Program-made: the position numbers and the translations under genes
Shown here: positions 41,094 to 50,005 of the stretch, piece by piece
Layout: every line of letters starts with the position of its first letter
Numbering within the stretch: position 1 is the first letter of the stretch
The notes under the pieces: model-generated
What the model was told of the DNA's origin: nothing
The model's input: only the letters and a program-made list of their open reading frames with translations
The model's database searches: none
From: Actinopolyspora lacussalsi subsp. righensis
GTDB lineage: Bacteria > Actinomycetota > Actinomycetes > Mycobacteriales > Pseudonocardiaceae
Assembly (NCBI RefSeq): GCF_900116555.1
Contig: NZ_FPAT01000010.1
Coordinates: 124,001 to 188,000, forward strand
Length of the DNA stretch: 64,000 bases
Direction: 5' to 3'

Positions 41094-41970
41094 TCAACGC
41101 ATGCGTTCGGCGAGCTGGTCGAAGAAGTCTGCAAGCACCTTGTTTGCTCTGTCCTTAATCAACTCGGCCCCTCCGAACCGATAGACCTCGTATCCGGCGA
41201 GCCGGAGCCATCGGTCCTCGGCGACCGTCTCGCTGTAAAGCGCAGGGCTCGCTTTGTCGCCGTCGGCGTAGTGCTGCTTCCCGTCAACCTCGATGACGAC
41301 GCGGTGCCTACTAGAGAACAGGATGAGGAAGTCCATCCGCTGCCGTGCCAGCGGACTACCGCTCTGGCCGGCGGTCCGCCGGGCAAGCTGGGTCGCAGGG
41401 TCGAAATGCAGATAGACCTGCGGGATCAGTGCGGGGATTTCGAAGCCGTCCTTGTAGCGGGCCGCGTAGGTATCGAAGACGAGCTGCTCGACCGGGTTGT
41501 CACCGAGAGAAGCCCGAAGGCGGTTGTGCAGGTCTGCCGACCTCTCGTGCCGACGCAGCGTCGGTGAATCTCTGGCGCGCTTTCCACCACTCGATCAGGT
41601 TGCTGTACGTCAAGCCGTCAGCGGGGATCGGTTGGTCGTACACCAGGCAGTACTCGCCGTTGCGGACGATCTCGATGTCGTTGTTGACGGCATAACGCAG
41701 AACGAGTTCGGGTTTGGGGCCGGTGGTGGCGAAGATCAGGTTCTTCGCCGGCGTGCCGACGCCCCCGCCGCGGTCATACTCGGCAAGCAGGGCAGTGAGG
41801 GTGTCGAGAAGTCCGCCGGTGACATCAAGCTCGGTGACCATGCGCCGCGCAAGGGCCACGAGCCGGGGGAGCTCCCAGCTTGCGGTGTATCCCTTGATGA
41901 CATCGCGCTTGTACTCCTCGTCGGCCGGACGCCCAACCATTCTCGTGGACTTCCAGTCGAACAAGCGCAC
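41094..41970 (-). pseudogene. DUF559/Vsr-like nuclease gene, 5'-truncated and frameshifted
   Basis: Two reading frames join into one protein. The first (41970 to ~41550) encodes ADEEYKRDVIKGYTASWELP, KNLIFATTGPKPELVLRYAV, NNDIEIVRNGEYCLVYDQPI. The second (~41545 to 41094) continues SADLHNRLRASLGDNPVEQL, FDTYAARYKDGFEIPALIPQ and the nuclease core QRMDFLILFSSRHRVVIEVD then GKQHYADGD...RLAGYEVYRFGG. The core has the ExDGxxH...RxxxLxxxGY pattern of DUF559/very-short-patch-repair-like endonucleases. A single-base frameshift lies at ~41545-41560. The 5' end abuts the truncated methyltransferase A at ~41924-41932. The N-terminal part may relate to AbiJ-like abortive-infection proteins (uncertain). 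Confidence 0.65.
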
Positions 41971-42577
41971 CGTTGCAGTAGTCCGTTCCCCACGGGGCCA
42001 CTATCAGCCCACACGGGCGTGTCTGTTCGATCCACGCCCGTGGAATCGTGTGGATGGACGCGGTGGCAATCACGCGATCATAGGGAGATTCCGGAGGATA
42101 GCCCTCGGTTCCCTCCGCTCTCACTACCAACGGAGTGTATCCAGCATCGTTCAAGGTGTGGCGCGCGAAAGCAGCCAGGTGTGGATCGACTTCTACCGAG
42201 ACGACTCGTTCAGCTTGACCGACACGAACACTCAGCAGAGCCGCGTTCCAGCCGGTTCCCGTACCGATCTCCAGTACCCGGTGTCCCTGGTGTACATCGA
42301 GTGCGTCGAGCATATTCGCCACAAGCGATGGCTGGCTGCATGAACTGGACGGTTGTAGCCCCACACCGCCTGATGTGGTTCTGCCATCGTCCACCTGCGT
42401 GATGATCGGCTCATCCGCGTTGACCAGCTCACGCCATCGAGCTTCCTCGGTTTCGCGGGACACGGCGGCGAATTCACCCGTAACGGGGTCATCGACCCAC
42501 ACCACAGGCGGGATGAACGGCTCACGCGGCACGGAAAGCCGTTCATGCCATTCAGTTATGATCAGAGCCGCCTTCAT
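41825..42577 (-). pseudogene. PIMT-like methyltransferase of cassette A, 3'-truncated
   Basis: The first ~215 residues align throughout with the intact cassette-B enzyme: ITQVDDGRTTSGGVGLQPSSS, SQPSLVANMLDALDV, the SAM-binding motif I LEIGTGTGWNAALL, motif II VVSVEVDPHLAAFA and GLIVAPWGTDYCNGALVRL...ASG. Homology stops at ~41930, where the sequence switches to the nuclease gene and the frame runs on to a stop at 41825 with unrelated residues. The C-terminal extension (~145 residues) of the full-length paralogue is lost. ATG 42577 overlaps the stop of peptide A (ATGA). The Rossmann core is complete, so partial activity cannot be excluded. Confidence 0.75.
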
Positions 42578-42684
42578 TTCTCGTCGTCCTCGTGTTTGTT
42601 GCCGTCGTCCTTGCTGTCCCAGTTCTCCCATTTATCCGGCTGCGGATTGCCCTGCCCATCCCGGTCCGCGTCCCGCTTTCCCAT
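42574..42684 (-). CDS. Asp-rich small peptide A, candidate RiPP precursor
   Basis: 36 residues, beginning MGKRDADRDGQGNPQPDKWE and ending in a Lys/Asp/Glu/His-rich tail with DDGNKHE. AGGAGA lies 7 bases before the ATG, and the stop overlaps the methyltransferase A start. It is almost identical in its central part to peptide B (48432-48545), although flanking non-coding DNA has diverged, so selection has kept the peptide. It contains two Asp-Gly pairs (9-10 and 27-28), the classic sites of aspartimide formation and PIMT action, and no Cys. Expected role: substrate of the adjacent PIMT-like enzyme. This is inference from arrangement. Confidence 0.7.
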   Translation of the reverse strand: MGKRDADRDGQGNPQPDKWENWDSKDDGNKHEDDEK

Positions 42685-42764
42685 TTCAATTCTCCTGTCT
42701 TGGAATCGGTCCCTTTCAGGCTGCCGGAAGCGGGACTGTCACGGAACGCACTGAGCCCGACGGA

Positions 42765-42785
42765 GTTATGCGGGATCGTGACTAA
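42765..42785 (+). promoter_or_regulatory. Motif shared by both cassettes in the divergent promoter region (A)
   Basis: GTTATGCGGGATCGTGACTA, then AG, lies about 40-60 bp before the small CPxxY gene. The same sequence with three or four changes occurs at 48633-48653 in cassette B in the same relative place, while most of the surrounding intergenic DNA differs. It is a candidate binding site for the XRE/DUF5753 regulator or a shared core promoter. Confidence 0.5.
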
Positions 42786-42823
42786 GCCTTGCCGTGATCG
42801 CATCGGTACTCGAACCTGTGTCC

Positions 42824-43066
42824 ATGAAACTTCGGAAGGTGTCCGGCTGTGAGAACGGCACGTGCCCGGCCGTGTACGTCTCGGACCGGCAAACAGCGGT
42901 AGTGCAGGGCGCCCACGTGCTCACGGCGGACGGGCTGACGTTGGGGGAGGGGGAAACGGCCGTGGAGCTTCCTCCTGACATCGTTCTCGGTGCAGTGACC
43001 GCGCTTGCCGAGTCCGGCAGCGCGGAGACGGTCCAACGGCTCAGGGAGGCTCTGAAGTGCTCCTAG
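42824..43066 (+). CDS. Small CPxxY protein of cassette A
   Basis: 80 residues with the pattern LRKVSGCENGTCPAVYVSDR, VVQGAHVL and GETAVELPPDIVLGAV. Small actinobacterial proteins with a C-x(4,5)-CPxxY motif often stand directly upstream of DUF6879 genes. Function unknown; the paired Cys suggest metal binding or a redox-sensitive site. ATG 42824 was chosen because the cassette-B paralogue also begins M-x-LRKVSGC; GTG 42794 is the in-frame alternative. The next gene starts before this one stops (10-bp overlap). Confidence 0.7.
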   Translation: MKLRKVSGCENGTCPAVYVSDRQTAVVQGAHVLTADGLTLGEGETAVELPPDIVLGAVTALAESGSAETVQRLREALKCS

Positions 43067-43572
43067 ACGGTGAACAGTTCGGCCAGTACCTCACCGACTA
43101 CAAGCGGACGGCGTGGCGGTTCGAGACGCAACCGGCCTATGCCATGCCGAACGAGCAAGACAACCTCAACCGGTGGCGCGCTGGGGAGCCGAAGCCGGAG
43201 GGGCATAACGCCACCTGGCACGAAACCGTGCGGAAGGCGGTCAACGCCGAGAAGACCATCGGTCGTGTCCGTACCGTCCGGCAGCCGCTTACGGAGTACC
43301 AGCGGTTCCAACTGGATTGGGCCATTCCCGGCAACATCGAAGCCGGGGAAGACATCCGCATCCTTGACCTGACGGACCTTGAGCTTTCCCTTCCGTCACA
43401 AGACTTTTGGGTCTTCGATGATGAGACGGTGGTTGATCTCAACTTCCGTCCAGATGGGACGCTGATCAACGTGGACAAGTTGGAAGACCCGGACCTGGAC
43501 CAATACCTGAAGTGGCGAGACACCGCACTCGCGCACGCGGTGTCACTGACCGACTGGAATGCTCGAACCTGA
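43057..43572 (+). CDS. DUF6879 family protein, cassette A
   Basis: 171 residues matching DUF6879: FGQYLTDYKRTAWRFETQPA, W...V...AEKTIGRVRTVRQPLTEYQRF and the hallmark AGEDIRILDLTD...DFWVFDDETVVDLNF. The family is found in actinobacteria beside XRE/DUF5753 regulators and is of unknown biochemistry, probably a partner in regulation. GTG start overlaps the upstream gene, and its 3' end overlaps the regulator gene by 14 bp, so all three are tightly coupled. Paralogue at 48925-49446. Confidence 0.82.
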   Translation: MLLDGEQFGQYLTDYKRTAWRFETQPAYAMPNEQDNLNRWRAGEPKPEGHNATWHETVRKAVNAEKTIGRVRTVRQPLTEYQRFQLDWAIPGNIEAGEDIRILDLTDLELSLPSQDFWVFDDETVVDLNFRPDGTLINVDKLEDPDLDQYLKWRDTALAHAVSLTDWNART

Positions 43573-44413
43573 CACCAAAGAGCAGGGGCGCAAGCACCTT
43601 GCCGAGACGCTACGAGACTTGCGGAAGGCGGCCGGACTCTCCGGGGAGAGGTTAGCCGCCCGAGCGGCTATGTCTCAGTCCAAGATCAGCCGGATTGAGT
43701 CCGGGAAGGTGCTCCCCACCGTTGTTGACGTGGAGCGTGTCGTAAACGCGCTCGAAGCCCCCTCCGAAGTGGCGAGCGAACTCCTTTCCCTCGCTCGCGC
43801 GGCGAACGTCGACTACGCGTCCTGGCGCTCGTACGCCCGGGTCGGTCTCTGGCGCAAGCAAGCCGAGATCAAGGCGCTTGCCGAAACATCCTCGACGGTC
43901 CGGCAGTTCCTACCTGCCATCCCCTCCGGCCTCATCCAAGCGCCCGAATACGCCCGTGCCGTACTGACACCGGCGATCGAGGGAAACTCCTCCCGGAACG
44001 TAGAACGAGCCGTGCGGGTGCGGCTGGACAGTCAGGAAGTGCTCAAGGATGAGTCCCGGCGGTTCCACTTCCTGCTGACCGAGCAAGCGATCCGGTGGCA
44101 GCGTGCGGAACCGGACATCATGGTGACTCAGTTACGGTACATGGCCGGACTGACCGACCGGCCGAACATAGAGCTTGCCATCATCCCGCATGGCGTCACT
44201 GTCAGCGCGGCCCCGCTGAACATTTTCGTCGTCTACGACGATCGTCTGGTGATGGTCGAACTGTTCTCCGGGGAGGTCGCGCTCCGCGACCCTCAGGACG
44301 TCTCCTACCACCTGAACGTGTTCGAGTACTTCCGAAAGCGAGCGGTGACAGGAGAAGCCGCCCGGCAGTTTCTCGAAGCGGCGGCCGACGATTTTATGCG
44401 ACCACACGACTAA
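43559..44413 (+). CDS. XRE-family regulator with DUF5753 domain, cassette A (intact)
   Basis: 284 residues. N-terminal HTH: LAETLRDLRKAAGLSGERLA, AAMSQSKISRIESGKVLPTV (~residues 15-65). The C-terminal DUF5753 region follows, with the family signature FLPAIPSGLIQAPEYARAVL and LTEQAIRWQRAE...MAGLTDRPNIELAIIP. Such regulators (WhiJ-like) usually work with a small partner encoded next to them, and the gene is coupled to DUF6879 by a 14-bp overlap. It is full length here, unlike the copy in cassette B, so it may now regulate both cassettes. An IS element starts 35 bp after its stop. Confidence 0.88.
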   Translation: MLEPDTKEQGRKHLAETLRDLRKAAGLSGERLAARAAMSQSKISRIESGKVLPTVVDVERVVNALEAPSEVASELLSLARAANVDYASWRSYARVGLWRKQAEIKALAETSSTVRQFLPAIPSGLIQAPEYARAVLTPAIEGNSSRNVERAVRVRLDSQEVLKDESRRFHFLLTEQAIRWQRAEPDIMVTQLRYMAGLTDRPNIELAIIPHGVTVSAAPLNIFVVYDDRLVMVELFSGEVALRDPQDVSYHLNVFEYFRKRAVTGEAARQFLEAAADDFMRPHD

Positions 44414-44447
44414 AACTCGCTTCGCTGACCCGCACCGTTCTAACGTC

Positions 44448-45317
44448 GAACGTTATTCATGCCGGAGATGAATTATCGGCACGGAAAGAGCAACGGTCTT
44501 TCGTGTGCGATGGTTCCTGGGAATAAAAAATCATGCACAGGAAAGACCGTTGCGCTACCACCGTACCACAGGGTTGTCGACCGAGGCGATTAACTACCTG
44601 GCCCGAGAAGTCGCGGGACTAGTGATATGGAGTTCGGGAAATACATTCTCGGCATTTCAGGGCGTGGCTATGACATTAGAATACTATCGCACCAACCTCT
44701 CCCAGGGTATGTTGGCGGCGTTTCATGGAACATCGCAGCCGACGCTGTCGCGGATCATTGCCACGCTCGAGGAGGGCTTGGCCCACATCGTGACTGAGTT
44801 CTGCATCGACCTCGATGACCTCAAGTACGATGCTACCCTGCTCGACGGGTTTCTCATCCCCACCGGTAACCGATCTGACCAGGACAAGCTCTACTCCGGT
44901 AAACGCCGCCAATCCGGAGTCGGTGCCCAAGTGGTCGCAACCTTGTACGGACGACTGTTGACCGTTTCCGAAATCTTTCGTGGCTCTACCCATGATGTCA
45001 CGGCCTTCCGCAACAGCAGCCTCGCTTCGCTGCTCAACCAGAGCAACGCCATCGCCGACGGTGGTTATCGTGGAACCAATATGGTCATTCCGATCCGGAA
45101 ACCAAACGGGTATGAACTCGACGCCGATCGTGCTGCCTTCAACGCAGCCTTGACAGGATGGCGCGCTCCCGCCGAACGAGTCATCGCGCATCTCAAGAAC
45201 TGGAACATTCTGGCCACCGGATATCACAGGCGCCTCTGCCACTTGCAACGCGTCGTCCACATCATCACCAGACTGAAACGCTTCCGTGCCTGCTACGCGG
45301 CCTCATGAATAACGTTC
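44448..45317 (+). mobile_element. Insertion sequence of the IS5 superfamily (~870 bp)
   Basis: Perfect 14-bp terminal inverted repeats GAACGTTATTCATG (44448-44461) and CATGAATAACGTTC (45304-45317) bound a single transposase gene whose stop codon lies inside the right repeat. No convincing target-site duplication is visible, so post-insertion change or ends offset by a few bases are possible. It separates the cassette-A regulator from an orphan immunity gene. Confidence 0.85.
44550..45308 (+). CDS. IS5-superfamily DDE transposase
   Basis: A 252-residue transposase. N-terminal HTH region (LRYHRTTGLSTEAINYLARE...FHGTSQPTLSRIIATLEEGL), then a DDE_Tnp_4-type catalytic core: first Asp in KYDATLLDGFLIPTG, second in NAIADGGYRGTNMVIPI, and a C-terminal Glu in RAPAERVIAHLKNWNIL. 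All parts are present, so the element may still be active. I chose TTG 44550 with AGGAAAG upstream; an in-frame GTG at 44505 would add 15 non-conserved residues. Confidence 0.85.
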   Translation: MRYHRTTGLSTEAINYLAREVAGLVIWSSGNTFSAFQGVAMTLEYYRTNLSQGMLAAFHGTSQPTLSRIIATLEEGLAHIVTEFCIDLDDLKYDATLLDGFLIPTGNRSDQDKLYSGKRRQSGVGAQVVATLYGRLLTVSEIFRGSTHDVTAFRNSSLASLLNQSNAIADGGYRGTNMVIPIRKPNGYELDADRAAFNAALTGWRAPAERVIAHLKNWNILATGYHRRLCHLQRVVHIITRLKRFRACYAAS

Positions 45318-45375
45318 TGGATGTCTGGGAAGAGGGCGCGACCGAACCAATAACTATTCGAGGAGTAGCGGACCA

Positions 45376-45819
45376 ATGATCCTGAATTCTTCCGTTGTCA
45401 ACAAGGAATTCAAGAGAGCGGAACAAGGACAGCAAGCCGAAGCTCTCATCGAGGAACTTCTTGCTACAGATCACAGCTCATGGGAGTCGCATCTCAGCTT
45501 CACGGATGAATCCATCGATCCGGACGAGGTAAGCGAAGACTGGTATCCGGACCACGACGTCACTCTTGCGGTCGACCCAACTTCAGGCTACGGAGCGATG
45601 CGCTGGACAGGAATGATCGATAACGTCTTGGTTCCGTTCGTCACGTACAACCCGAACACCGAACCGAATATTGATCTCTTGCGTGACGGCGGTACTCCGC
45701 ACTTCTTTCCTCATTCGGCGGTTCTGCCCGTGGATGACGTCAGGATGGCTTTGCTGGAGTTCGCGCGTACGGGACAGCGTCCGGAGTGCGTGAGCTGGCA
45801 GGAGTTCGACAGGTTGTGA
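45376..45819 (+). CDS. Imm1-family immunity protein (orphan)
   Basis: 147 residues that fit the Imm1 family of polymorphic-toxin immunity proteins: a Trp/Asp-rich start (WESHLSFTDES), VTLAVDPTSGYGAMRWTG and the C-terminal FFPHSAVLPVDDVRMALLEF then ARTGQRPECVSWQEF. Imm1 proteins usually protect against nucleic-acid deaminase or nuclease toxins encoded immediately upstream. No toxin gene is present: the IS lies directly before it, so the toxin was probably lost or displaced. Start ATG 45376. Codon use is less GC-rich than the chromosome average. Confidence 0.78.
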   Translation: MILNSSVVNKEFKRAEQGQQAEALIEELLATDHSSWESHLSFTDESIDPDEVSEDWYPDHDVTLAVDPTSGYGAMRWTGMIDNVLVPFVTYNPNTEPNIDLLRDGGTPHFFPHSAVLPVDDVRMALLEFARTGQRPECVSWQEFDRL

Positions 45820-46409
45820 TACGGGATTCTATCGGGGTTTCCCGTTGTTGCTCGGCACCGTGCTGACTTGGTGCTGACTCCGTGAGGTTGAGAGACCTCC
45901 CAGAGATCGGGGCTGTTTCCGGTCGCAGACCGCAGCCCCCGACAGCCTCACTCAGCCCCGGAGCCAGGCCGCCGTCCTCTTTTCTTGCGAGCCGGAGGCG
46001 ATCCCCGGGGCTCGGGTCCCGCGTGGACCCGTAAGGCTGCGATCCCCCCTCGATCTCGGGGGAGCCGTGTATTCGACACACCTCTCCCGGGATCGAGGGG
46101 GAGGTGAAGACTCTCGGTATACCGGAATTGTGACTTCGGAGCTTCACCCCGCGCGGGGTGTTACACCCGCGCCGAGCCGGGGGTTACGCGCATTGCCGGG
46201 ATGATGGCCGGGCTACACGAGCGTGAGCGCCAGGGCTTACCAAGGACACGGCCGGGTTCGCCTAGATCGTGCGTTGCCTGACGCGCGGACTTCACCCGCT
46301 CTGACCGGGAGCCGCACGGCTGTGAACCGTGGCCAGGACTTGTAACCCTACCCACACGCTGCCTGGACCGCGTGTGGAGGGAAGTCTATTCCGTGCTAGA
46401 CTCAGCACT
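45820..46409. other. Gene-poor region with inverted repeat
   Basis: About 590 bp without a supportable gene. It contains the long imperfect inverted repeat at 46043-46104 and many short GC-rich dyads (for example CCGCGCGGGG at ~46149). A 64-residue ORF at 46161-46355 on the minus strand has no coding character. It may be the scar of mobile-element activity. No tRNA was found here. Confidence 0.45.
46043..46104. repeat. Long imperfect inverted repeat
   Basis: TCCCCCCTCGATCTCGGGGG (from 46043) is complementary, with two small bulges, to CTCCCGGGATCGAGGGGGA (46084-46102), leaving a ~20-nt loop. It could be a transcription terminator after the Imm1 gene or the end of a mobile element. Confidence 0.5.
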
Positions 46410-46478
46410 GCTATATGTATTCTTGGCGGATGAAATATAGCATGAGTCCCCTGGTCACGATCAGGGGACTCTTCTTTG
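46410..46478 (+). ncRNA. Candidate small structured RNA with terminator
   Basis: Two consecutive hairpins: GCTATAT (46410-46416) with ATATAGC (46435-46441), then AGTCCCCTG (46445-46453) with CAGGGGACT (46462-46470), followed by CTTCTTTGTT. This is the only classical hairpin-plus-T-rich terminator in the window and stands in AT-richer DNA with TAGACT (~46396) as a possible -10 box. No ORF explains it. It could also be the 3' end or attenuator of a lost gene. Confidence 0.4.
46445..46470 (+). terminator. Intrinsic terminator with T-rich tail
   Basis: A 9-bp perfect stem, 8-nt loop and downstream CTTCTTTGTT. It reads on the plus strand; the structure also fits as the end of the small RNA candidate. 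Confidence 0.6.
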
Positions 46479-46566
46479 TTCGTGATCGAGGGTGCACGCA
46501 TGAGAAGCACCCCCGGAACGACTCCGAGGGTGCGAAACTGTTCGGCTGGATCAGTCGAACCGGGAG

Positions 46567-46815
46567 TCAATCGAGTTCGCGAATCCGCTGTGTGGCAGTG
46601 TCGCTTTCCCATCCGGCGAGAGCACGGTGGTCCGCCGCCCATTCGGCGCGGGTCCAGGCTTCCGGCATGTTCGGCAGGGCTTCGCGTGCCGCCTGGCGGG
46701 CCTGCTCGAAGTCCCCGAGGGCGTGGAGCACGAACCTCTTGTGTCTATTGAGGATGGAAGGAACGTACCAGTACGAGGAATCAGGCAGCTTTTTCGGAGC
46801 GGGGAGACGTGCCAC
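46567..46815 (-). pseudogene. C-terminal remnant of a TPR-type regulator
   Basis: 82 codons with WYVPSILNRHKRFVLHALGD, FEQARQAAREALPNMPEAWT and RAEWAADHRALAGW, which resembles the last TPR-like segment of actinomycete XRE/TPR regulators. The frame is open upstream only to ~46910, without an HTH or further repeats. It is therefore probably a gene fragment, in line with the damaged state of the island. A short real protein cannot be excluded. Confidence 0.4.
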
Positions 46816-46914
46816 GTGGTGGTCGGTTTCCAGCGCCGCGTGGGTACGTCGAGAGGGCGGCTTAGCTCCGTATCCGGTCGATTCTGCAGCTCCACGGGGA
46901 GTTCTGTGAAATAA

Positions 46915-47250
46915 TCATTTTGGATGGTCGGTTGTGCTGACGGTGCCTGTCGGGGGATAGGCATCGGCGTTGATGGGGCCGAGTACCGGGTCGAACACCG
47001 TGATCCGTTCGGCGCGTTTCTCGGAATCGGCTTTCTGCCGACGGTTTTGCCACAGGTCGAGCTGTGAGTTCTTCGTGCGCGTCTTTCCGTGGTATTCGCA
47101 CCTTCCGCCGCCGGTGGCGACCGTGCATCGGGTGCCCCTTTTTGTGGTCCCGCCGCACTGCACCGCCGGGTCGTGGATGTGGCACAGCCCGGAGGGACGC
47201 GCTCCATTGGGGCAGGGCTTACCGGCCTTCGTGGTCGTTCGACAGCGCAT
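46915..47250 (-). CDS. Cys/His-rich zinc-binding-like protein (DUF5763-like)
   Basis: 111 residues with two CxxxT-type Cys/His units: MRCRTTTKAGKPCPNGARPS, GLCHIHDPAVQCGG, TTKRGTRCTVATGGGRCEYHG, i.e. repeated C-x(8,9)-C-x(8-9)-C-x2-H arrangements likely to bind zinc. The rest is polar and disordered. It lies 70 bp downstream of methyltransferase B on the same strand and may be read from the same transcript. ATG 47250 starts at the conserved motif; GTG 47289 would add 13 residues. No link to the peptide pathway can be shown. Confidence 0.6.
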   Translation of the reverse strand: MRCRTTTKAGKPCPNGARPSGLCHIHDPAVQCGGTTKRGTRCTVATGGGRCEYHGKTRTKNSQLDLWQNRRQKADSEKRAERITVFDPVLGPINADAYPPTGTVSTTDHPK

Positions 47251-47319
47251 GATCGGATCATGCCACTTTCCAGGATCAACCGGATGCACAAGGTAGCTGT
47301 TCGTGGTGTCACCGAGGCC

Positions 47320-48426
47320 TCAGACGCGGATGTTCCAGGAGAGCACACCGCCCGCTGCGTCCACTCGAACCGTGTGTGTGCCGTCCCGAGTCACGGTGAG
47401 TTCGTACTGCCCCGGCCCTGGCCTTCCGGTATCTGACCACCAGGTGTAGGCCGCCTCTACCTCGTCCCACAGTCGGCGCGGGCCGAGCTGATGGACGATC
47501 CACGGATGCTCGTCACGTACGAGGGTCAGCCGTGCCCACGACTTCGAATGGACATCGTGTAGTTCGACGTGGCGGTGCTTCTCGTCGATGTCCACCACTG
47601 TCGGGTAGCAGTGCGGTACCCGAAGTCCGATCGTGAACGCGGCATGCTCGAAATCGAGCATCTCGAACAGCTCGCGGCCACTTCGTGCGGTGGCTGACCG
47701 CTCAGCGCCGAGCAGTTCCCCGTCCGTGGGATCCAGGAAATTCCGACGTTGACCCCGTACCCGCATGAAAGCGAGCCGCATGCCGAAGTGACCGGATGCC
47801 GAGCCGTCCTCTTGCACTCGAAGCCGCGTCAGCGCGTCCTCACCGTAGTCGGTGCCCCACGGTGCCACGATCAAGCCACCGGCCTGCGTTTGGTCGAGCC
47901 ATGCGGGAGGAATCGACCGGACGGATGCCGTGGCGACCACCCTGTCGTAAGGCGCTTCGGCCGGGTAGCCCTCGACACCGTCCGCGGTAACCAGCAGTGG
48001 AAAGTAGCCTTCGGTTGCCAGAGCGCCACGAGCTCCTTCGGTCACTCGTGGATCGACATCGACCGAGACCACCCGCCCGGATCGGCCGGCTCGGTCGATC
48101 AGCAGAGCGGCGTTCCAGCCGGTTCCGGTACCGATCTCCAGCACCCGGTGGCCCGTCCGTACGTCCAGCGCGTCCAGCATGTCCGCGACCACGGACGGTT
48201 TGCTGCAGGAGCTGGTCGGCAGGAACCCAACACTTCCCACGGACTCGGTCCCGTCGTCGACCTGCGTCGTCACCGGTTCGTCCGCCGCGACCATCCCATG
48301 CCAGCGTTCAGGCTCTCGTTCCTTGAAGACCGGGTGGAATCCACCAGTGATCGGATCGTCGTCCCAGATCACGGATGGTATGAACCCAGCACGGGGGACG
48401 GTGAGCCTGTCGCGCCAATCGGTCAC
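47320..48426 (-). CDS. PIMT-like O-methyltransferase with C-terminal extension (cassette B, intact)
   Basis: 368 residues. The N-terminal half is a protein-L-isoaspartate O-methyltransferase fold: TTQVDDGTESVGSVGFLPTSS (substrate loop), SKPSVVADMLDALDVRTGHR, SAM motif I LEIGTGTGWNAALLIDRAG, VVSVDVDPRVTEGA, APYDRVVATASVRSIPPAWL and GGLIVAPWGTD. Repair PIMTs end near here; this protein has ~145 more residues (HFGMRLAFMRVRGQRRNFLD through WWSDTGRPGPGQYELTV), as in PIMT homologues that make aspartimides in RiPP pathways. GTG 48426 lies 5 bp after the stop of peptide B. Likely role: methylates an Asp in peptide B, giving a succinimide (aspartimide). Confidence 0.8.
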   Translation of the reverse strand: MTDWRDRLTVPRAGFIPSVIWDDDPITGGFHPVFKEREPERWHGMVAADEPVTTQVDDGTESVGSVGFLPTSSCSKPSVVADMLDALDVRTGHRVLEIGTGTGWNAALLIDRAGRSGRVVSVDVDPRVTEGARGALATEGYFPLLVTADGVEGYPAEAPYDRVVATASVRSIPPAWLDQTQAGGLIVAPWGTDYGEDALTRLRVQEDGSASGHFGMRLAFMRVRGQRRNFLDPTDGELLGAERSATARSGRELFEMLDFEHAAFTIGLRVPHCYPTVVDIDEKHRHVELHDVHSKSWARLTLVRDEHPWIVHQLGPRRLWDEVEAAYTWWSDTGRPGPGQYELTVTRDGTHTVRVDAAGGVLSWNIRV

Positions 48427-48431
48427 TTCGC

Positions 48432-48545
48432 CTACTTCTCGTCGTCGCTCTCGTGTTTGTTCCCGTCGCCCTTCTCGCCCCAGTTCTCCCACTTGTCCGG
48501 TTGGGGTTGTCCTTGTCCGTCCCGATCCGTGTCGCGTTTGCCCAT
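48432..48545 (-). CDS. Asp-rich small peptide B, candidate RiPP precursor
   Basis: 37 residues, starting MGKRDTDRDGQGQPQPDKWE and ending with a charged tail containing KGDGNKHE and DDEK. AAGGAGA lies ~10 bases before the ATG. It differs from peptide A at about six positions plus one inserted residue, while DRDGQG, PQPDKWENW and DGNKHE are identical. Both Asp-Gly pairs (9-10 and 27-28) are kept. No Cys, one Ser, one Thr, so lanthipeptide-type chemistry is unlikely. The methyltransferase follows 5 bp later. It is below usual gene-calling length limits and is easily missed. Confidence 0.75.
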   Translation of the reverse strand: MGKRDTDRDGQGQPQPDKWENWGEKGDGNKHESDDEK

Positions 48546-48632
48546 CGCAGGTTGTCTCCTTTCGTTCAACTGCTGCGAGGATCAGGCTGCCCAACATCAT
48601 CGATGGCACGGAAGACCACGTGCGTAATCCGG

Positions 48633-48653
48633 TTATGCGACATCGTGAATACG
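48633..48653 (+). promoter_or_regulatory. Motif shared by both cassettes in the divergent promoter region (B)
   Basis: GTTATGCGACATCGTGAATA, followed by CGGCCTTG, matches 42765-42785 of cassette A (GTTATGCGGGATCGTGACTA, then AGCCTTG). It lies ~40-60 bp upstream of the small CPxxY gene. Confidence 0.5.
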
Positions 48654-48692
48654 GCCTTGTCCGGATCGGTATCGTGATCGATGCTTCCGGAC

Positions 48693-48923
48693 ATGGAACT
48701 ACGTAAGGTCTCCGGCTGTGACGACGACGAATGTCCGGCCGTTTACCTCTCGGACCGTGGAACAGCGGTTGTGCGGGGCGATCAAGTGCCGATTCACGAC
48801 GGGCCCACGTTGAGCTCGGGGGAAGCCGCTGTCGAGCTACCGGTCGAAACCGTTCTGCACGCTGTGGCGGCGTTGTCCGGATCGGCGGCGCTGAGACCGG
48901 ATGAGGACTCGGGGAGGTACTGA
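48693..48923 (+). CDS. Small CPxxY protein of cassette B
   Basis: 76 residues, paralogue of 42824-43066: LRKVSGCDDDECPAVYLSDR, VVRGDQVPIHD, SGEAAVELPVETVLHAVAAL. The Cys pair and CPAVY are retained. ATG 48693 matches the cassette-A start; ATG 48681 is possible. The DUF6879 gene follows 1 bp after the stop. Confidence 0.7.
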   Translation: MELRKVSGCDDDECPAVYLSDRGTAVVRGDQVPIHDGPTLSSGEAAVELPVETVLHAVAALSGSAALRPDEDSGRY

Positions 48924-48924
48924 A

Positions 48925-49446
48925 GTGCTCCTGGACGCCGAGGAGTTCGGCAGGAGATTCGTCGAGTGTGAGCGTTCCGCCTGGCGCTTCGAATGCCAGT
49001 CCACCTACAACATGAGCAGGGAACAGGAGAACTTACGGCTGTTCCGGGTCGGGCAATCGAAACCGGAGGGCCACAATGCGAGGTGGCATGAGCGGGTCCG
49101 TGCGTTCTTGGCGACCGGTAAGACCATCGGACGTGTCCGGACCGTCCGTCGGCCGCTCAACGAGTACCAGCGCTACCAGCTTGCCTGGGGGATTCCCGGT
49201 AATCTCGATGCCGGAGAGGACATCCGAATTCTCGACCTGACCGACCTGGAGCTCGACCTTCCCCCGCGCGACTTCTGGTTGTTCGACGAGTCGCTGGTGG
49301 TGGAGTTGTGTTTCGAGTCCGACGGCACTCTGGTCGCCAGACAACAGCTGGAGAATCCCGATTTGACGCGGTATCTGGCGTGGCGGGACACAGCCTTGTC
49401 ACATGCCGAGACGTTGAGCGAATGGAATGCTCGAACCCGACGCTGA
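48925..49446 (+). CDS. DUF6879 family protein, cassette B
   Basis: 173 residues, about 60% identical by eye to the cassette-A paralogue, with KTIGRVRTVRRPLNEYQRYQ, AGEDIRILDLTDLELDLPPR and DFWLFDESLVVELCF. GTG 48925 with GGGGAGG upstream matches the start of the paralogue (MLLD-E/Q-F). Its 3' end overlaps the regulator remnant by 20 bp. Confidence 0.82.
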   Translation: MLLDAEEFGRRFVECERSAWRFECQSTYNMSREQENLRLFRVGQSKPEGHNARWHERVRAFLATGKTIGRVRTVRRPLNEYQRYQLAWGIPGNLDAGEDIRILDLTDLELDLPPRDFWLFDESLVVELCFESDGTLVARQQLENPDLTRYLAWRDTALSHAETLSEWNARTRR

Positions 49447-49722
49447 GCAGCGGGATCGCAGGAGCCTGGCTGAGACGCTCAGGCAACTGCGTGACGCGGC
49501 CGGGCTCTCCGGCGAGAGGTTGGCTGTCAGGACCGCGATGTCCCAGTTACGACGATCGGCTCGTGACCGCCGAGCTGTTCTCCGGCTCGGTCGCGTTGCG
49601 CGACCACCGAGACATTTCCTGTCACCTGAACCTGTTCGCCCCACTTCCGGGAACGATCTCTGGTCGGTAAGGGAGTGCGGCAACCGCTGGTCTCTATCAT
49701 CGAGGAATATCGTGGTACGTGA
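49427..49722 (+). pseudogene. XRE/DUF5753 regulator of cassette B with internal deletion
   Basis: The first ~38 codons (LAETLRQLRDAAGLSGERLA, then VRTAMSQ) match the cassette-A regulator. The sequence then jumps to the segment YDDRLVTAELFSGSVALRDH in another frame, and after one more small indel to HFRERSLVGKGVRQPL and a stop at 49720-49722. Compared with the intact paralogue, ~555 bp are missing (from just after MSQ to just before VYDDRLV), including the recognition helix and most of DUF5753. It cannot encode a working regulator. Confidence 0.85.
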
Positions 49723-50005
49723 GTGGAGGCGTGCCCTGCGTGTATCGTTCACAATACTCTTTTTGGAAGTTGATGATGAGCAGGGTTCACTGTTTCTTCG
49801 TCAGGTTTTCCGTTTTTGATGCGTTGTTCGCAGGATTCATTCGGGTTGTAAGTACTACTTCGCTCTCGGAACCATGTGCTGTGCAGGTGATTTGTCGATA
49901 ACTTGACATGGACAATCTTGTTGCGGATTCGATATCTTGATCGCTTTGATGTTTCGTGTGCTTTCTGGCATGATCAACGCGTAGTCAACTCGCTTCAGGG
50001 GTTTT
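49723..50005. other. AT-rich spacer
   Basis: About 280 bp, clearly lower in GC than the chromosome, with no recognisable gene. It holds the promoter region of the gene at 50006. Confidence 0.4.

Follow-up and report, generated by a model that had tools for sequence, protein, structure and literature searches.

Imiditides and type I pamtides are made by a two-gene unit, a short linear precursor and a homologue of protein isoaspartate methyltransferase (PIMT), as described in PMC10787088 and PMC13001092. According to the same two papers, imiditide precursors are ~45 aa long, rich in Gly, Pro and Asp (Pro 16.8%), and carry a conserved Asp near Gly or Pro, and the enzymes have a C-terminal domain of >100 aa with the motif WxxxGxP. 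Among regulators, WhiJ9 is described as binding the iosA-whiJ9 intergenic region and activating iosA, with BldB proteins opposing it (PMC10294661). DUF397 and DUF5753 are in print with graspetides of groups 11 and 13 (PMC13097080), another class of ribosomally synthesized and post-translationally modified peptides (RiPPs). Here, we analyze two cassettes, A (41.8-44.4 kb) and B (47.3-49.8 kb), in a stretch of 64,000 nucleotides, hereafter the window, from Actinopolyspora lacussalsi subsp. righensis (contig NZ_FPAT01000010.1; genome of 4.9 Mb). In both, the minus strand encodes an Asp-rich peptide and then a PIMT-like methyltransferase, divergent from a plus-strand trio of a small CPxxY protein, a DUF6879 protein and an XRE regulator. 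Each cassette probably specifies, or once specified, a small aspartate-modified peptide, and the trio is a module of its own that lies beside PIMT-like enzymes more often than genomic density predicts.

Peptide A (36 aa; 42574..42684, minus strand) runs directly into methyltransferase A (41825..42577, minus strand), the peptide stop and the enzyme start overlapping as ATGA, and peptide B (37 aa; 48432..48545, minus strand), identical to a protein of A. mzabensis, is separated by a 5-base gap from methyltransferase B (47320..48426, minus strand; 368 aa, GTG start). Both enzymes match PF01135. A sequence-only reading of this DNA had thus rightly placed a short Asp-rich peptide with the motif DRDGQG-x-PQPDKWENW directly before a PIMT-like gene, twice, and its expectation that homologous peptides would be conserved beside the methyltransferase in other genomes was borne out. 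In a tree of 88 PIMT-like enzymes, comprising the 80 named loci closest to enzyme B (L058-L137), six further loci and the two window enzymes, the latter fall in one clade of 14 with a support of 100. All 14 members show the two-gene arrangement, a short precursor peptide adjoining a PIMT homologue; 13 of these peptides were found by search and that of L066 by eye, and a decayed copy in genome G204 stands outside the tree.

The peptide alignment holds 14 sequences, those of 13 clade members (L066 is not in it) and L093 from outside the clade, in which Met1, Gly2, Asp5, Arg8, Asp9, Gly10, Gly12, Gln15, Asp27 and His31 are invariant. A Gly thus follows Asp9 in every aligned peptide. Asp17, in the PDKW motif, is replaced by Glu in three of them and is therefore an unlikely target; the best candidate would be Asp9, in the invariant Arg-Asp-Gly, and then Asp27. 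The ratio of nonsynonymous to synonymous substitution rates (dN/dS) is 0.10-0.13 for peptide A, and for peptide B dN is 0 with just one synonymous change, which leaves little power. The peptides, 36-37 aa in length, are composed of 19-25% Asp, 11-16% Gly and 5% Pro. Peptides A and B contain no Cys, so the tetracysteine motif of type II pamtides and cysimiditides is absent. Precursor candidates upstream of the 80 enzymes were picked by composition score and by eye, with 10 of the 80 loci left out; two loci gave none, and some candidates look spurious. Among them, NPQDDSDSGNKHGGGGSDEGGNTNDGQGPADG is a very constant candidate precursor in Streptomyces and Kitasatospora (e.g., L087, L091 and L094, among L058-L137), and it has GNKH in common with the window peptide family.

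Enzyme B keeps the S-adenosylmethionine motif GTGTG, a C-terminal extension of >100 aa and the WxxxGxP motif, here WSDTGRP. The C-terminal extension that the sequence-only reading named as typical of such PIMT homologues is found in enzyme B; enzyme A, truncated at ~41921, has lost this hallmark of imiditide enzymes and the WxxxGxP motif with it. The match of enzyme B to TIGR04188 (8.8e-91) reaches 304.9 bits, below the 380-bit cut-off, and that to the FxLD methyltransferase family TIGR04364 reaches 128.1 bits against a cut-off of 320, outside membership. The graspetide synthetase TIGR04187 is missing genome-wide (best score 19.9 bits, cut-off 350), which speaks against a group 13 graspetide, and the cassette neighbours checked include no enzyme of another RiPP class. 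The two sub-threshold scores, and the fact that all 10 matches to solved structures are named PIMT, would suit an ordinary isoaspartate repair enzyme for which the peptide is no substrate. We regard this as very improbable in view of the peptide in all 14 clade members, the stop/start overlap in cassette A and the C-terminal extension with WxxxGxP in enzyme B. Because of the same peptide conservation and the same features of enzyme B, the peptide/enzyme pair appears to be a new sequence family in a known RiPP class, imiditide/type I pamtide, as compared by description; the class suggested from the letters alone, in which a precursor and a PIMT-like enzyme suffice, fits. A third PIMT-like enzyme is encoded elsewhere in the genome (C17:87817-88881, listed as L001 and L048; TIGR04188 1.8e-97), with an XRE/DUF5753 gene and two DUF397 genes nearby and, as noted, no TIGR04187 synthetase anywhere in the genome.

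On the opposite strand, across a divergent intergenic region of ~140 bp, cassette A encodes CPxxY A (80 aa; 42824..43066, plus strand), DUF6879 A (43057..43572, plus strand; PF21806 3.6e-49), whose frame overlaps that of CPxxY A, and an intact XRE/DUF5753 regulator A (43559..44413, plus strand; PF13560 3.6e-16, PF19054 1.7e-31), which overlaps DUF6879 A in turn. Cassette B encodes CPxxY B (76 aa; 48693..48923, plus strand), DUF6879 B (48925..49446, plus strand; PF21806 7.4e-46) and XRE B (49427..49819, plus strand). The divergent trio that had been read in both cassettes thus stands for CPxxY and DUF6879 in each and for the XRE/DUF5753 protein of A, but XRE B is a remnant.

Of the 394 genomes of the class, 98 have DUF6879, and we sampled 60 of these 98 with one region per genome, that of the best-scoring copy listed for it; the sample is therefore non-random. 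CPxxY adjoins DUF6879, in the same orientation, in 58 of the 60 regions, as detected with a profile trained partly on sampled DUF6879 loci, and an XRE gene of at least 60 bits lies beside DUF6879 in 50. The CPxxY motif itself is not general, and Streptomyces relatives read SPTxY or similar. This genome has only two DUF6879 genes, both in the window, versus 54 DUF397 and 40 DUF5753 matches. Of the features of WhiJ-BldB systems, the XRE plus DUF5753 pairing is present in XRE A and reduced to a remnant in XRE B, and the DUF397 partner is lacking, since a Pfam search of CPxxY gave no match. Reading CPxxY as a diverged DUF397 is unsupported (hhalign Prob 0.1-0.2%). The CPxxY profile had no match among solved structures at E 1, and the four matches of the DUF6879 profile (E 0.4-0.58) are not credible. 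In A. xinjiangensis, a radical SAM/SPASM gene stands close to a more distant trio (L173, 2902-4014 and 5160-6773) and may mark a further cluster for a modified peptide.

The association of the trio with PIMT-like enzymes, first proposed from the window, is supported outside it. Tabulated from the enzyme side, DUF6879 lies within 4.5 kb at 21 of the 80 PIMT-like loci, of which 20 also have CPxxY and 19 an XRE gene of at least 100 bits. Its position is one-sided: 19 loci have DUF6879 in the 2.5 kb upstream of the enzyme (77 loci cover this bin), versus none at 1.2-3.7 kb downstream (72 loci cover it), with one extra DUF6879 directly behind the enzyme of L103, between the two bins. For XRE-like helix-turn-helix genes of any sort within 3.5 kb, the counts are 52 of the 80 loci upstream and 7 downstream. 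From the trio side, a PIMT-like enzyme is found in 9 of the 60 DUF6879 regions versus 0.35 expected from a background of 209 matches in 444 Mb at the same threshold (P 1.5e-10). On the enzyme tree, the linkage requires at least 11 gains or losses (parsimony gives 17 changes, against 20.6 for shuffled labels), and on the DUF6879 tree at least 13 (23 changes, against 30.0 for shuffled labels).

Counting other RiPP enzymes as well, 15 of the 60 regions hold one: nine PIMT-like enzymes, three FxLD methyltransferases over cut-off (L243, L251 and L262, the second also with a TIGR04363 precursor) and three albusnodin/ikarugamycin-type cyclases over cut-off (L215, L218 and L219, all of one genus). The nine PIMT-like regions include L236, a graspetide cluster over both cut-offs, and L222, where a Cys-rich small open reading frame (ORF) resembles, by eye, a type II pamtide precursor. 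Among the best 25 families in the 150 immediate neighbours of 59 trios, PCMT, TIGR04364 and TIGR04188 come top with 7 members each; the 25 families listed for 120 neighbours of 40 DUF397 control loci include no RiPP maturase of such sort. HaaT, of cyclophane RiPPs, was considered as a further neighbour and dismissed, for the two matches checked reach 338 and 311 bits against a cut-off of 1125 and look like NB-ARC/TPR regulators.

The shared promoter region holds a candidate operator. Though synonymous sites between A and B are saturated, an intergenic block, GTTATGCGNNATCGTGANTA, is kept in both cassettes and in their relatives; its relaxed pattern, TATGCRNNAWCRYGNNTA, is a dyad (TANNC...GNNTA). 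In the window, these operator-like 18-bp dyads lie in the divergent promoters at 42767..42784 (plus strand), 39 bp upstream of CPxxY A, and at 48634..48651 (plus strand), 41 bp upstream of CPxxY B, and are 82 and 88 bp from the respective peptide starts. Across 21 genomes the pattern occurs 12 times, always upstream of a DUF6879 gene, and the reversed pattern once; 11 of the 12 matches precede DUF6879 genes already found by search, and one (G653) precedes a trio found by looking. Among the DUF6879 genes from the genome search, 11 of 13 carry the dyad. The two without it are that of G204, which has lost its promoter by deletion, and G062:C21, where the recognition helix of the XRE is a different one; the XREs sharing the dyad share the helix MSQ-S/P-K-I/V-SR-I/V-ESG. 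In 100 regions upstream of CPxxY genes (some sites counted twice), there are 11 exact matches, all in Actinopolyspora, and 5 with one mismatch, against 0 and 2 in controls. Genome G215 (L043, 10241-10290) carries three dyads in tandem, spaced by 16 bp, in front of the peptide; a trio was not found next to them, nor, at E 1e-60, a trans-acting XRE of the kind searched for in the genome. These three dyads may be relics, or they may indicate that the peptide is what the dyad serves. The place of the dyad in the shared promoter suggests that the trio would control the peptide.

A number of observations weigh against such control. DUF6879 and CPxxY are absent in 8 of the 14 enzyme-clade members, 45 of the 60 sampled trios have none of the counted RiPP enzymes, and A. 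mortivallis has CPxxY and DUF6879 without an XRE beside them. No peptide cassette accompanies 6 of the 12 DUF6879 copies in Actinopolyspora, and the dyad therefore belongs primarily to the trio. It was not found in Streptomyces trios, where the single readable XRE helix differs from the dyad-linked one. Moreover, seven of the nine sites from which the pattern was drawn recur in its 12 matches, and a further three matches are orthologues of those seven. This leaves two independent matches, in G653 and G004, and no CPxxY is detectable at the dyad/DUF6879 locus of G004. Finally, the excess is borderline when DUF397 loci serve as controls (40 regions, taken from the same genomes), at 9/60 versus 2/40 (P 0.105), or versus 1/39 (P 0.042) without the one control that is itself a trio locus; for enzymes of at least 150 bits with the first profile, the counts are 9/60 versus 1/40 (P 0.039) and versus 0/39 (P 0.0085). 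Together with the insertion sequence and the immunity gene between the cassettes (described below), the copies without a peptide cassette, the clade members without DUF6879 and CPxxY, and the borderline controls would fit a trio that is an independent module, inserting into variable islands that also take up RiPP and toxin genes, and exerting no control over the peptide. We judge this unlikely, because the position relative to the enzyme is one-sided (L103 apart), there is the excess over genomic density given above, the linkage recurs on both trees, and G215 keeps its tandem dyads before the peptide with no trio beside, whether as a remnant or as peptide-serving sites.

The two cassettes had been described as adjacent copies. 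Their arrangement is indeed the same, but DUF6879 A and B are only 63% identical (dS ~2.1), and each lineage matches its own Actinopolyspora relatives at ~89-100% protein identity, A. xinjiangensis and A. mortivallis for A, A. mzabensis and, decayed, G204 for B. Cassettes A and B are therefore old separate lineages, with no recent duplication.

Neither cassette is as complete as the sequence-only reading implied: enzyme A and XRE B are both broken, and this damage also counts against a functional circuit in this strain. Methyltransferase A can be aligned to its intact counterpart in A. xinjiangensis only down to ~41921, beyond which different DNA follows, so its C-terminal domain has been lost. 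XRE B retains ~40 N-terminal residues; a deletion of 554 bp, seen by comparison with A. mzabensis, comes next, and the frame is lost; a Pfam search finds no DUF5753 left in it, and cassette B has no working XRE of its own. The decayed B copy of G204 has the same XRE B junction and a further loss from the enzyme to CPxxY. It is possible, though we doubt it, that both cassettes are decaying and yield no product here, the working systems being those of relatives, for the truncation of enzyme A, the deletion in XRE B and the further deletion in G204 all point that way. On the other side, peptide B, enzyme B, both CPxxY genes, both DUF6879 genes and XRE A are still open; dN/dS is 0.1-0.4 against relatives for the non-peptide genes where computed (the enzyme A pair is not among them); and the junction shared with G204 implies that cassette B otherwise stayed open after its XRE was lost. 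Of the two enzymes and two XREs, one of each, enzyme B and XRE A, is intact in this strain.

Further genes lie around the cassettes. In the window, 41094-41970 contains a DUF559 fragment and a 156-aa ORF of no known family abutting the broken end of methyltransferase A. An IS5-type insertion sequence (IS) element (44448-45317), which is bounded by inverted ends of 14 bp and encodes a DDE_Tnp_4 transposase, is inserted just 3' of XRE A, and an Imm1-type immunity gene (PF14430) follows at 45316-45819, between the cassettes. The short tail before this gene resembles the end of a protein in L176 that reads, from its sequence, as deaminase-like, and the IS5-type element seems to have cut it. Elsewhere, trios (L171, L172 and L175) and a peptide cassette (L043) adjoin an apparent exonuclease III gene, named by translation, a neighbourhood that is possibly an insertion hotspot.

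The reading we favour, and consider fairly likely, is that an imiditide/type I pamtide pair is read away from the trio, with the XRE acting on the dyad and CPxxY and DUF6879 as modulators. Gene content, conservation, selection, linkage and dyad distribution are what the analysis shows. The following course is inferred as to its chemistry, the Asp that is modified, binding to DNA, the parts played by CPxxY and DUF6879, and cross-control. The PIMT-like O-methyltransferase would methylate one conserved Asp of the short linear Asp-rich peptide, and the methylated Asp would close to an aspartimide that relaxes to isoaspartate. The XRE would bind the 18-bp dyad and so govern the operon that encodes it and, by way of the shared promoter region, that of the peptide; CPxxY and DUF6879 might bind the XRE and set its activity, by analogy with the DUF397 (BldB) partners of WhiJ regulators. 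Because this strain has an intact enzyme only in cassette B and an intact XRE only in cassette A, any product would be due to enzyme B, and XRE A could act at both dyads; enzyme B and XRE A together could thus make up one working circuit.

Among the neighbours checked, no transporter and no protease belongs to the unit, and an internal role of the peptide is therefore plausible. A bolder extension, which we consider rather improbable, is that the trio serves actinobacteria as a portable control unit for RiPP circuits inside the cell (those of imiditides, graspetides, FxLD lanthipeptides and albusnodin-type lasso peptides), and that the aspartimide/isoaspartate peptide would itself be the ligand that DUF6879/CPxxY-XRE reads at the shared operator. 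If true, this would be the first function for imiditides, an internal chemical signal feeding back on its own synthesis.

Compared with published systems, the window pair is like imiditides in its two-gene unit, its conserved Asp near Gly, its charged ends and an enzyme C-terminal domain with WxxxGxP. Unlike the described imiditides, its peptides are 36-37 aa instead of ~45, with Pro at ~5% instead of 16.8%, and they form their own sequence family in Pseudonocardiaceae, facing the trio; NmaA and SpaA were compared by description only. From the FxLD lanthipeptide system (TIGR04363, TIGR04364), which also has a PIMT-like enzyme and which the trio adjoins in L243, L251 and L262, cassette B differs in the score of its enzyme (128 bits, cut-off 320). 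Group 13 graspetides share a PIMT-like enzyme near XRE/DUF5753 (PMC13097080), and the trio adjoins one such cluster, L236; this genome, however, is without the TIGR04187 synthetase.

On the regulatory side, the trio resembles WhiJ-BldB as described for iosA-whiJ9-bldB9 (PMC10294661) in three respects: an XRE is paired with a small partner, its target is read divergently, and a binding site, putative in the window, lies in the intergenic region between them. It differs in having CPxxY and DUF6879 as partners, with no homology of CPxxY to DUF397 detectable by hhalign, and a dyad in place of the three direct repeats reported there. The association had been put forward as undescribed, and this stands for DUF6879, which is not named in the literature searched; the main texts of the imiditide papers mention no DUF, and the one searched for XRE does not mention it either. 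It does not stand for the wider setting, as DUF397 and DUF5753 near PIMT-bearing graspetides are in print (PMC13097080). The newer part is thus the control trio, the peptide/enzyme pair belonging to a known RiPP class. The trio gives DUF6879 its first context and genome mining a new marker for RiPP clusters, and as a recurring module with a recognisable operator-like dyad it offers a handle: finding the signal that opens the switch would make the role of the peptide testable.

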